Source: a virus
Virus record (IMG/VR): IMGVR_UViG_3300030943_000078
Span: 1 to 38,194 of that record
Length of the DNA stretch: 38,194 bases
Reading direction: 5' to 3' (one strand)
This document shows positions 10,595 to 19,364 of the stretch, piece after piece; the stretch's first letter is position 1, and the number at the start of each line of letters is the position of its first letter. The position numbers were made by a program, and so were the translations under genes. A model generated the notes under the pieces. That model was not told the DNA's origin. It saw only the letters and a program-made list of their open reading frames with translations, and did no database searches.

Positions 10595-10945
10595 CTAAAA
10601 ATTAACAGCACACGTTTTACAGTACAACACGCCCCGGCGCATCACAAGGCGCGTGCGCGGCAGAATCTTTTTACAGTGTCCGCATTTGTTCGACGTGATG
10701 CGGCTACGTGGTTGTCGGGGTGTCGCTGCGGCGCATCGTTCACACACATACACCTTTTTCCGCACTTTATACGGGCGTGCAAGTTTACCACCACAGGCGC
10801 ACAGCCGAGCTGTACAACCGCCAATACGTGGCGCTTCGTCGTCGATTTCAGCGCGTGCGAGTCGTTTATACGGCGCGAGTGTCGCAAGCGACGCGCGGGC
10901 GAGACGGTCGCCGATCTCTGAGTCGTACAGTCCGCTAATACTCAT
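10595..10945 (-). CDS. Double zinc-ribbon protein, unknown
   Basis: A 116-residue protein (119 if the ATG at 10954 is used). The start at 10945 (MSISGLYDSEIGDRLARASL) is preferred because GGGGG lies ten bases upstream; the same run is only two bases from the other ATG. It has eight Cys in four pairs (CACGG, CERC, CGHC, CKTC), spaced as two zinc ribbons of rubredoxin-knuckle type. The N-terminus overlaps the 3' end of the MuF gene. Similar Cys-rich small proteins next to MuF genes occur in phages, but I know no assigned role. It could bind DNA or RNA, or fold as a minor head component. Confidence 0.6.
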   Translation of the reverse strand: MSISGLYDSEIGDRLARASLATLAPYKRLARAEIDDEAPRIGGCTARLCACGGKLARPYKVRKKVYVCERCAAATPRQPRSRITSNKCGHCKKILPRTRLVMRRGVLYCKTCAVNF

Positions 10946-12491
10946 AAACAACATACCCCCGTAACGGTTTCACAGACTTTGACGGAATAGCGGCATAACA
11001 CCGACAATTATGAATTGACAAGTTGTTTGCTACATACCACCCTGTCGCTGTTTCGAGGTTATAAACATGACAATCAGAAACTATAGTATCCACTGCAACG
11101 ACGCGCTCAAAAATAAGATCGTGAAAAGTTATTGCGCCGGGAAAAGCGTTCTCGCTTGCTCTATTGAGTTCTTCGGCAATAAAACGGCGCGTGCGTTTAT
11201 TAGACGCCTGCTCATCAAACGCGGCATCAAACCGCGCAATGGCAGTCAAGCAAACGTCATCCGCTTTCAAAACTCCACTCCCGAAGAGAGAAAAAAGATC
11301 ACCGCTGCCGCGCACTCCGCCAAAAGAGGAAAGCCCGAGTCTGAAAAGAGCAGAATTAAGCTCGCTCTCACTCGCTCCAAACAAATGACCGGGCATCATA
11401 TCGGGATTGGTGAAAATGAGTTTGCGGATATGCTCGTCAGTCGAAATATTCCTTTTATCCGTCAGCATCCAATTAACCGTTATAACATCGATTTTTTCCT
11501 CTGGGATTCCGTCGCCGTGGAATTGCGAAGCACTGCCGGTAACGCTTTCAGAAACGCCGCACAAAGAAAAAAAATCGAATATCTTCTCAACCGGCACACC
11601 AGCGTCGTATTCATTTCTTTCGCTTCCGTCGACACTTTGCGCGGAAACTTTGACGACATAGTCACTAGTCTTGACGAGATTCGCAGGCTTCCAGCCACTC
11701 TGTGTCAATACAGGATGATTGCCTGTTGTTCTGATCGTTATACCAGATTCCGTAATGATCGAAGTCAGTTTACCTGTGTACTTGCGCCGAAAACATCGTA
11801 TAACGTCAGAGTTCAGACGTATCTTTGTACCTGAAGGAACACAACCCCACGCCGTGCCCGGATTTCCTTTATGTTCTTTTCCACTCTTTGATACTTCAGT
11901 CGGCGGATCGTCAAAAAGAAAACATTTATTTGCGAGCTTTTTATGCGTTTTTCTGACGCGCTTGTCGCGCTGCGTTGTCCAAATGTAGCGATCTGAAAAC
12001 TCTTTTATTATACCCTCGTTAACAACCGTCCCCAGATTGTATGCATTTTCATCGCCGATCTGCTCGGCCTTGTCTTTATAGTGATCCGCGAACGTGAATA
12101 CTTTATAAACATTTTCACCGTCCCGCGCTTCGAAAACTTTATTTAACGCCTCTTGTGCTGTGTATGAATTTTCTTTTCGCAGTCTCGCAATCTCTTTTTG
12201 AACGACTTCATTCTGCCGGTCGTTCACCATTGTATACAGTGAGTCCCGGAGCGCGCCTTGTGTCTTCAGCCACTCGTGCACCTTACCGTCAAGCGTCCCG
12301 CGATAGACCCGCATCCCTTTCGCAGCATAGTGTTGTTCAAGCGCGCGCCGGTAACGTTTTGAAAAGAGGCGCGCCCGGCTGTCATACTCTTCCCGCGCGT
12401 CTATACTGTCCTCGTTATCCCACACAGCGCGCGCGTAGTCTCTGACCGCTCGACGCCACTGCGGGGCATGCTTTTCAAAAATGTCTATCAT
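10935..12491 (-). CDS. MuF-like minor head protein interrupted by an intein
   Basis: A 518-residue precursor. Residues 1 to 216 and 496 to 518 are host protein: a helical N-terminal region, then RYIWTTQRDKRVRKTHKKLA and GTAWG, joined after splicing to CRCYAAIP, the hallmark GxRC/CRCYA end of the Mu gpF (SPP1 gp7) fold. MuF proteins bind the portal region and help head morphogenesis and DNA ejection. Residues 217 (Cys) to 495 (Asn) form an intein (see separate entry). The spliced product would be 239 residues. The start overlaps the preceding gene by four bases; the gene lies after the portal, the normal MuF place. The insertion point is the most conserved part of the MuF domain, a typical intein target. 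Confidence 0.85.
   Translation of the reverse strand: MIDIFEKHAPQWRRAVRDYARAVWDNEDSIDAREEYDSRARLFSKRYRRALEQHYAAKGMRVYRGTLDGKVHEWLKTQGALRDSLYTMVNDRQNEVVQKEIARLRKENSYTAQEALNKVFEARDGENVYKVFTFADHYKDKAEQIGDENAYNLGTVVNEGIIKEFSDRYIWTTQRDKRVRKTHKKLANKCFLFDDPPTEVSKSGKEHKGNPGTAWGCVPSGTKIRLNSDVIRCFRRKYTGKLTSIITESGITIRTTGNHPVLTQSGWKPANLVKTSDYVVKVSAQSVDGSERNEYDAGVPVEKIFDFFSLCGVSESVTGSASQFHGDGIPEEKIDVITVNWMLTDKRNISTDEHIRKLIFTNPDMMPGHLFGASESELNSALFRLGLSSFGGVRGSGDLFSLFGSGVLKADDVCLTAIARFDAAFDEQASNKRTRRFIAEELNRASENAFPGAITFHDLIFERVVAVDTIVSDCHVYNLETATGWYVANNLSIHNCRCYAAIPSKSVKPLRGYVVYEY
11007..11843 (-). mobile_element. Intein in MuF protein
   Basis: A 279-residue protein-splicing element. Block A is at CVPSGTKIRL (Cys1 = residue 217 of the precursor). 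Block B is at GNHPVLTQSGW with the conserved TxNH-like His. Blocks F/G are at HVYNLETATGWYVANNLSIH with terminal His-Asn, followed by Cys as the +1 nucleophile. All classic splicing residues are present: Cys1, block B His, His-Asn, Cys+1. The middle (precursor residues about 300 to 460) carries FHGDG but no LAGLIDADG or HNH motif on the sense strand. Removal restores an uninterrupted MuF motif. The opposite strand of this DNA carries a separate endonuclease-like gene. Confidence 0.9.
11067..11834 (+). CDS. Antisense Vsr/EDxHD-like homing endonuclease nested in the intein
   Basis: A 255-residue protein encoded opposite the intein and contained within it: it starts 60 bases inside the intein C-terminal boundary and stops 7 bases before the Cys1 codon. 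A GAGG at 11055..11058 sits eight bases before the ATG. Residues about 11 to 55 look like a helix-turn-helix (LKNKIVKSYCAGKSVLACSI). Residues 70 to 105 (STPEERKKITAAAHSAKRGK) look like a NUMOD3-type DNA-binding segment. Residues 115 to 200 have a Vsr/PD-(D/E)XK pattern: GENEFADMLVSRNIPF, QHPINRYNIDFFL, VAVEL, then KKIEYLL and SVVFISF. Likely catalytic acids are E116/E118, D142 and E152. No His is seen between VAVEL and KKIEYLL, where relatives usually have one, so activity is uncertain. Confidence 0.8.
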   Translation: MTIRNYSIHCNDALKNKIVKSYCAGKSVLACSIEFFGNKTARAFIRRLLIKRGIKPRNGSQANVIRFQNSTPEERKKITAAAHSAKRGKPESEKSRIKLALTRSKQMTGHHIGIGENEFADMLVSRNIPFIRQHPINRYNIDFFLWDSVAVELRSTAGNAFRNAAQRKKIEYLLNRHTSVVFISFASVDTLRGNFDDIVTSLDEIRRLPATLCQYRMIACCSDRYTRFRNDRSQFTCVLAPKTSYNVRVQTYLCT

Positions 12492-17824: not shown

Positions 17825-19045
17825 TTAAACTCCCTTATGATAGATATCGAGCGTCGTTCCAAAATGGTGTCTTGCATAAATTTTGTCCGGCCCTGTATAC
17901 TTTACGCCCGTGAAATGCTCGGGGATCATGAAGTGAGAGGGAAATATTTTTACGTTTGCTTTTGTCTGTCGATACATCTCACCCATATATTGATTGCCGG
18001 TTGTTTTCCACGGTTCGCCGACTGTCTCTTTTTGCCGTAACCCTTCAATCAATTCCGCTGCAAATACACTACCTTGCACAGCTGCTAATAGTGGTGATAT
18101 GAGTCCGGGTCGTACCGTTTCATTTTCCCAAACACTATACGAATCAAAGTCATTGTAAAACAGTTCATCAATCGGTGCAAGACATTCCGCATCGGCGTCC
18201 ATAAAAACGCCACCGTATTTATGTAATATTTCATATTGACAAACGTCTTTCGCGCCATGCCAAACACCACTCGACATATAATAGTCAATATGTTTTCTAT
18301 TTATAAAGTTTTCCTTATCTATATCCTTTTCAGTCCACAGCCTGCACTCCCAATCGGGATTAAACTCTTCCCAGCTTCGCATCCACTTAAGCGGCATCGG
18401 TTTTGGCCCAAACCACGCCCTATGTATGATCTTTGGTATGGTGACAGGTTCTTCGCCTGATAGCTTCCACGTCGGCAGCGACACCGTATTATTTGCAACG
18501 GATGGGATTTCCGAGCGGTGCCCGATAAGTGAGGGCACAGGAAAAAGGATCTTCATGCCGTTACGCTTCACGTATTCAGATATACGGTCGTCATCATGCT
18601 GTGAGCGCTGCCGGTCAAATTCGGCGATCATCGGTTGTATGTGTGTCACGGGTAAACATATTGCAACACCGCCCCGCGTCACATTGTCCGTGTAGACGCC
18701 GTCTTTTACCCATAGGGGCGAGCGGTGGCGGTCTTGCTTCAGGAAAAAATTATACCCTTGCGCTCGTCGGTTTTCCTTTATCCGCTTTTCTTCCTGTGCT
18801 GTTATAAAAGCAACGGCCTTTTCTCTGAAGTTATCGCAGACAATACTGTCATCTTGTATCACAAGGTGATGCGTACACAATGGATCATGCTTCATCCATG
18901 ACGCCCGGCTGTTTGCTATAAGGTTGTTTTGTTGGTCTATACTGAAATTAGAGTCGGAAAGTTGCAGTTTTTCCTTCAAATAGGGGAAAAACTGAGTGCG
19001 CGAGGGGTGCGCCATGACACAAATTGATAGTTTTACCGGTTCCAT
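17825..19045 (-). CDS. Two-domain glycosyltransferase (N-terminal GT, C-terminal GT32/OCH1-like)
   Basis: A 406-residue protein. The N-terminal half starts MEPVKLSICVMAHPSR and has HHLVIQDDSIVCDNF, a GT-A-like nucleotide-sugar site. The C-terminal half starts at IPKIIHRAWFGPKPMP and carries GGVFMDADAECL, the DXD motif of GT32 (capsular polysaccharide / OCH1-type) enzymes. Two complete-looking transferases in one chain suggest two consecutive sugar additions. The frame could begin at a TTG at 19072, but neither start has a clear Shine-Dalgarno; I chose the ATG at 19045. It is the first gene of the late minus-strand operon, with a methyltransferase two genes on. The acceptor is unknown. Confidence 0.8.
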   Translation of the reverse strand: MEPVKLSICVMAHPSRTQFFPYLKEKLQLSDSNFSIDQQNNLIANSRASWMKHDPLCTHHLVIQDDSIVCDNFREKAVAFITAQEEKRIKENRRAQGYNFFLKQDRHRSPLWVKDGVYTDNVTRGGVAICLPVTHIQPMIAEFDRQRSQHDDDRISEYVKRNGMKILFPVPSLIGHRSEIPSVANNTVSLPTWKLSGEEPVTIPKIIHRAWFGPKPMPLKWMRSWEEFNPDWECRLWTEKDIDKENFINRKHIDYYMSSGVWHGAKDVCQYEILHKYGGVFMDADAECLAPIDELFYNDFDSYSVWENETVRPGLISPLLAAVQGSVFAAELIEGLRQKETVGEPWKTTGNQYMGEMYRQTKANVKIFPSHFMIPEHFTGVKYTGPDKIYARHHFGTTLDIYHKGV

Positions 19046-19364
19046 ATACGTTTTCTGTACGGTACGCGTCAAAAAGTCAACCGTTTTTTTTCAGGTCTTC
19101 GCAGGCGTCCGCCCGTCCTCGATAACCAATCCTTCGGGTTGGTGTCATAATAATATTTCATACACACAGCACGTGTTTCCTAAGATAAAAAAAATATTAA
19201 AGTTTAGAGAATGCTTTGAGAGGACGGTGAGCAAATTAAAATAGCCCCTTTTTTCAAAAAACGGTCATAATCGTCAATGTTTACGACTATACGTAATTGC
19301 ATAACTACACATACGTTAGTGTCCGCCCACTTTTTGCCAACCCTCAAAAAACGCATGTTTTTGT
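19046..19364. other. Late-operon leader / intergenic region
   Basis: About 320 bases between the glycosyltransferase start and the half-site cluster. It contains a short stem with a TTCG loop (about 19118 to 19137), several A/T-rich stretches and no good -35/-10 pair on the minus strand. A short minus-strand frame (about 19204 to 19398) lacks a Shine-Dalgarno and I do not call it. The late promoter probably lies here but needs a phage-encoded activator or a non-canonical sequence, since I cannot recognise it. Confidence 0.4.

Follow-up and report, generated by a model that had tools for sequence, protein, structure and literature searches.

Can the same phage DNA encode, on one strand, an intein within a head protein and, on the other, a complete endonuclease that would mobilise that intein? 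This question is raised by a 38,194-nucleotide viral sequence (IMG/VR virus record IMGVR_UViG_3300030943_000078; hereafter the window, meaning the whole stretch of DNA that was analysed), in which an initial annotation made from the letters alone had noticed a homing-endonuclease-like gene lying antisense to, and inside, an intein of the MuF gene. Canonical mobile inteins, e.g., the VMA inteins, carry their endonuclease domain in frame (PMC8966425). We consider it highly likely that the window holds a mobile intein with its homing endonuclease encoded by the other strand, within the coding sequence of the splicing domain. In the mechanism that we propose, the sense strand would yield MuF with a self-excising HINT intein whose middle is a poorly ordered loop, and the antisense strand would be an independent gene for an endonuclease with a helix-turn-helix and a Vsr fold, which probably cleaves intein-free MuF genes, with repair then copying the entire element into the cut gene.

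An intein and an opposite-strand gene within MuF

The interrupted gene belongs to a structural module on the minus strand (terminase, portal, MuF, and a DUF2213 protein), and its reading frame is referred to here as the sense frame. Its features are as follows.

10935..12491, minus strand: MuF-like minor capsid gene, interrupted by an intein (518 aa precursor; PF04233 and Intein_splicing)
11007..11843, minus strand: intein, putative mobile unit (279 aa, Cys1 to Asn279; Pfam, invariant residues, empty sites in relatives)
11715..11717, minus strand: block B histidine, intein H43
11004..11009, minus strand: C-terminal splice junction, Asn and Cys+1 (from the sequence, HNCRC)
11124..11468, minus strand: sense middle of the intein, predicted disordered, an apparent antisense shadow of the nuclease (AlphaFold; substitutions follow the antisense frame)
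11511..11522, minus strand: FHGD motif, conserved in the sense frame; read in reverse, it is the VAVE motif of the nuclease

The MuF precursor matched a head protein family (PHROG 15127, 1e-57) and, below the cut-off, Pfam PF04233 (E 2e-4), while Pfam Intein_splicing was matched with an E of 2e-11 over precursor residues 227-495. Cys1 is precursor residue 217, the terminal Asn is residue 495, and Cys+1 is residue 496; with the block B T-x-N-H, these are the residues that define a class 1 HINT intein, and C1, T40, N42, H43, and N279 were invariant across 23 homologous inteins. The intein on the minus strand with all its splicing residues, as initially annotated, is hence upheld. In an AlphaFold model of the sense intein, the HINT ends were predicted well (pLDDT 80-97), while pLDDT fell below 50 over nearly all of residues 126-240. 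The best Foldseek matches of this model were nearly all inteins, at weak E-values (1.4e-3 and above), probably because the middle is disordered. No in-frame endonuclease domain was found between the splicing blocks, as the sense middle had no nuclease match, which agrees with the earlier remark that it lacks an endonuclease motif of its own; in the model, this middle looks like a loop that is tolerated because it would be spliced out. The sense open reading frame is continuous, i.e., not divided into two separate genes for intein halves.

The antisense gene is nested within the intein and shares its codon boundaries, and the following features were assigned to it.

11067..11834, plus strand: antisense homing-endonuclease-like gene (255 codons and TGA; homologues, model, I-Bth0305I match)
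11055..11058, plus strand: Shine-Dalgarno GAGG, 8 nt before the ATG and opposite the Asn-Leu-Glu codons of block F
11067..11069, plus strand: start codon ATG, whose reverse complement CAT encodes the block F His
11100..11219, plus strand: helix-turn-helix region, residues 12-51 (model helices; HTH_7, HTH_23, and HTH_58 in relatives)
11412..11687, plus strand: nuclease core, residues 116-207 (invariant residues; aligned to I-Bth0305I)
11412-11414, 11484-11486, 11490-11492, and 11520-11522, plus strand: core residues E116, N140, D142, and E152, respectively
11832..11834, plus strand: antisense stop codon, at intein codon 4 (Ser TCA)
10979..11020, plus strand: weak promoter-like elements (TTGACG-18-GACAAT at 10979-11008; isolated TTGACA at 11015-11020)

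As a consequence of the shared register, an antisense stop requires TTA, CTA, or TCA in the sense frame. Not one of these three was used among the 43 sense Leu and Ser codons in the window's overlap, an outcome with P = 2.9e-6 given that they make up 25.7% of the Leu and Ser codons in the phage's other genes. The plus-strand frame almost filling the intein, its own GAGG, the common register, and the avoidance of these codons had all been noted at first, and each was confirmed.

As a single query, the antisense protein returned nothing significant in Pfam, NCBIfam, or PDB, and the identification as a nuclease was made from a family profile and a structure model. A profile of 12 family members had I-Bth0305I (PDB 3r3p) as its top match (E 1e-5), and this was also the top PDB match in a Foldseek search (E 5.6e-4; TM-score 0.62 by target length) with a model of high mean confidence (pLDDT 89.6). 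The resemblance amounts to about 18% identity over 97 aligned columns, in a comparison that covered the catalytic domain of I-Bth0305I. Members of the family also matched helix-turn-helix, MTES_1575, and DUF559 families. E116, N140, D142, A150, and E152 were invariant in 40 members, so that both the core fold and the acidic catalytic residues (E116, D142, E152) of Vsr-fold homing endonucleases are present. The His of the EDxHD signature was not conserved, with any His at up to 17 residues after E152 occurring in just 19 of 40 members, and we therefore call the nuclease Vsr-fold rather than strictly EDxHD. The initial annotation, which had described a helix-turn-helix plus a NUMOD-like N-terminus ahead of a Vsr-type core, was right about the helix-turn-helix and the core; the matches of the N-terminus were to helix-turn-helix families and did not show a NUMOD. 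It had also named the lack of any profile match to homing endonucleases as evidence that would count against it, and the I-Bth0305I matches speak to the opposite.

Selection on two overlapping frames

A tblastn search with the antisense protein recovered homologues in 113 phage records (up to 37% identity, E 2e-35), from phages of Klebsiella, Edwardsiella, Gordonia, Aggregatibacter, Vibrio, Acinetobacter, Helicobacter, Pseudomonas, and Salmonella, and 59 further loci came from scans of IMG/VR. At almost all loci, both frames were open across the whole overlap and in the same register. The whole collection comprises about 109 distinct nucleases at 95% identity, falling into 61 clusters at 50%. 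On one contig (L074), the nuclease and the sense frame were both broken, which may represent a decayed copy or a sequencing error. In a bacterial genome collection, no relatives were found with the peptide patterns used, a result that reflects a limit of the patterns and is not evidence of absence.

Co-occurrence was also approached from the sense side, with a query limited to 80 residues of the sense protein, namely the intein's N-terminal splicing block. This search yielded 80 viral loci, 79 of which matched a profile of the MuF N-extein, and an antisense nuclease was detected by profile in all 80: 74 were confirmed in register by script, and six by opposite-strand profile where the motif pattern for the sense open reading frame failed. 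The only nucleases among the 80 that are possibly shortened were those of L173 and L174. Regular breakage of the antisense frame in homologous inteins, which the initial annotation had put forward as counter-evidence, was thus not observed, and among non-redundant loci, 53 of 55 were free of antisense stops. Stop-generating codons accounted for 2 of 2841 Leu and Ser codons in the overlap, compared with 528 of 2650 in the exteins. Apparent antisense stops in L044, L052, and L053 were set aside, as they precede the start codon of the nuclease and are not part of its coding span.

Openness and similarity of the mirror frame could in principle be a chance by-product of sense conservation and codon bias. 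The register does correlate the two proteins, and sense constraint by itself accounts for a median score of 83 bits with the nuclease profile. The observed median, however, was 270 bits, and in 74 of 74 loci, the observed score exceeded every one of the locus's own synonymous redraws, in which the sense protein was held fixed. Synonymous redraws also had far lower antisense similarity and acquired 6-15 antisense stops per sequence in the intein middle, and the loci span 32 to 67% GC.

A codon-position test pointed in the same direction. It used 19 locus pairs aligned on the sense protein, some of which share loci, so that the pairs are not all independent. Substitutions in the exteins peaked at the third position of the sense codons in all 19 pairs, and the same peak was found in blocks A-B (18/19), block F (14 vs 2), and the intein C-terminus (17 vs 1). 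In the intein middle, the pattern was reversed: substitutions peaked at sense position 1, which is antisense position 3, in all 19 pairs, and in each of them the antisense protein was more alike there than the sense protein. This reversal refutes chance openness, and we regard the by-product explanation as extremely improbable. Judged by this test together with the synonymous redraws, selection acts on both frames, as in an overlapping antisense gene pair, and the substitution patterns indicate that it is the sense frame that is conserved in the splicing blocks and exteins, and the antisense frame in the intein middle. Since the copies nearest to the window (L001-L003) do not differ in the antisense gene, this signal does not come from comparisons within the window's own lineage.

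The unstructured sense middle, less conserved than the nuclease, might alternatively suggest that only the nuclease is functional and that the intein no longer splices, its frame being passively open. We find this very improbable, given that the splicing residues are invariant, that the splicing blocks are conserved in the sense frame, and that nearly all nucleases have an open sense frame opposite them. The last point is informative because a free-standing relative shows the opposite: across the nuclease of Acinetobacter phage BUCT629, the opposite frame contains 13 stops (13/41 Leu and Ser codons), and an open sense frame opposite a nuclease is therefore not automatic. In nested open reading frames taken from stop to stop, 6 of 2265 Leu and Ser codons corresponded to stops. 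We thus retain the reading in which the intein would still be excised by protein splicing and the nuclease gene is maintained opposite it, and in which the nested gene, as the initial annotation had suggested, replaces a fused endonuclease with the same DNA coding twice, a proposal that the position test, the redraws, and the 80 of 80 loci sustain.

Two further observations concern these loci. The BUCT629 gene (L010:1767-2699) is convergent with an uninterrupted MuF gene, and its nuclease is possibly an ancestor or an escaped form. Separately, at several loci, the sense middles of different phages resembled each other somewhat more than would be expected from the fixed antisense protein; this extra similarity may reflect shared ancestry, real constraint, or a second function, and the middle is perhaps no mere passenger.

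Mobility and expression signals

Empty sites were found in Vibrio phages VBM1, Athena1, and 1.154.O, which carry an intein-free version of this MuF gene, with the empty site precisely at DYQ^CRC. In VBM1, the main stretches on either side were 93% and 97% identical to those of the intein-bearing phage, and it is on these Vibrio phages that precise in-frame insertion and the existence of empty alleles are documented. In some pairs, inteins and exteins were also discordant: L058-L060 have nucleases that are alike and exteins that are not (0.54 vs 0.08 normalised score), and Gordonia phages have clearly different inteins inside nearly identical exteins. More than one insertion place exists in MuF, as seen in Escherichia phage fEg-Eco06 vs Jersey-like Salmonella phages. 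The distribution and the empty sites fit horizontal movement, and from these sequence comparisons, we infer homing as its probable route.

An antisense protein might instead be made without being a homing nuclease, e.g., as a DNA-binding regulator of the MuF operon or as a defence or exclusion nuclease. Its helix-turn-helix modules and the unconserved His would suit such roles, and the target and activity of the nuclease, including cleavage of DNA, are predicted. Yet E116, N140, D142, and E152 do not vary in 40 members, and the gene travels with the intein, with the empty sites and intein-extein discordance described above. A non-homing role consequently seems quite unlikely to us, and the homing endonuclease reading is preferred.

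The signals from which the nuclease would be translated coincide with splicing motifs. The block F His codon was CAT in 38 of 40 cases, compared with 45% in exteins, and the remaining two were CAC, giving a GTG start. Within the block F Asn-Leu-Glu/Gln motif, the Leu codon was CTC in 32 of 43 homologues (vs 19% in exteins), a choice that provides the GAG of the Shine-Dalgarno sequence. Block F in most members would hence also act as the ribosome-binding site and start codon of the nuclease. In L028, L058, and L064, block F has Tyr instead of His, the antisense codon would be ATA, and the nuclease would have to start elsewhere or be silent. In the window, as listed, the nuclease stop falls at intein codon 4; among 80 relatives, 61 have it at codon 5 or 6.

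At a fixed distance on the nuclease strand, all 12 of 12 bases of a sigma-70 promoter were present in 8 of 74 distinct C-terminal tails (11%, compared with 0.3% of synonymous redraws), and at least 11 of 12 in 16 of 74 (22% vs 1.4%), figures that are exploratory since the scan was refined after a first look at that region. The -35 box falls on the last intein codons (Val-Ser-Asn), which in part of the family would thereby double as promoter. In the window itself, the candidate elements were no better than chance, while relatives have consensus promoters in the corresponding place. Taken at the level of sequence, the intein carries the translation start of the nuclease and, in some members, its promoter, from which antisense transcription and translation would proceed.

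Given such promoters in part of the family, the antisense transcript might itself matter, either by lowering MuF expression or by timing the nuclease early, before late-gene transcription. We consider this unlikely; it is a prediction from the promoters and would be an addition to the opposite-strand homing endonuclease reading, not an alternative to it.

Relation to known mobile elements

Collectively, these loci probably represent a distinct and widespread class of mobile inteins of ~0.8-1.1 kb, with the splicing domain on one strand and a complete homing-endonuclease gene on the other, the start and in part the promoter placed in intein codons, and both readings selected in phages whose hosts differ widely. 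Searches of open literature turned up no intein with an antisense nuclease, in keeping with the initial annotation, which knew of no described case, though a 2025 preprint by Gosselin et al. could mention one. It reportedly deals with actinobacteriophage inteins of 'non-canonical architecture', and because Gordonia phages carry the present element, it is the main prior-art risk.

In fractured genes, the two parts of a split intein are said to flank a gene for a Vsr-like nuclease (Dassa et al. 2009). The present element resembles them in combining an intein with a Vsr-like homing nuclease in phage, but here the intein is contiguous and its DNA is read twice. With canonical mobile inteins, it shares a HINT splicing domain, precise insertion in a conserved gene, an internal nuclease, and empty alleles; unlike in those, the nuclease is a separate opposite-strand gene that overlaps the splicing blocks, and the sense middle contains no nuclease. 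It would thus be a third way of building a mobile intein, beside the fused and split forms. Antisense homing endonuclease genes are known from nuclear group I introns, e.g., I-DsqI and the Didymium iridis intron Dir.S956-2 (PMC9548176), where the nuclease gene is likewise antisense to a self-splicing element, but those are RNA elements in rDNA with His-Cys box nucleases and no protein-on-protein dual coding. The out-of-frame HNH insertion ShiLan in phage methylases (PMC11855218) similarly hides a nuclease, there in an alternative frame of an insertion through which the host frame stays open, and differs in being on the same strand, of HNH type, and free of intein or intron, with no Shine-Dalgarno detected.

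Beyond mobile elements, the loci offer an unusually clear example of antisense dual coding over almost the full length, in which both proteins are recognisable and natural replicates exist at low and high GC. That splicing motifs, namely block F and the intein's final codons, apparently also provide a start site, a ribosome-binding site, and a promoter is relevant to how regulatory signals can be accommodated within protein sequence. Standard gene finding discourages overlaps, and such antisense genes are hidden as a result: public phage records generally miss the nuclease, and in nearly all of those examined, the annotation covers only the head protein on the other strand. An antisense hypothetical protein that overlaps the nuclease gene is annotated in Salmonella phage vB_StyS-sam (gp43; L016:2237-2638) and is probably a fragment of it. 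In the window's own neighbourhood, a small Cys-rich, zinc-ribbon-like open reading frame with weak Pfam matches only (10595-10954, minus strand) lies between MuF and the DUF2213 gene, and a glucosyltransferase-like gene (17825-19072, minus strand; PHROG 854, E 8e-17) lies near the terminase region.
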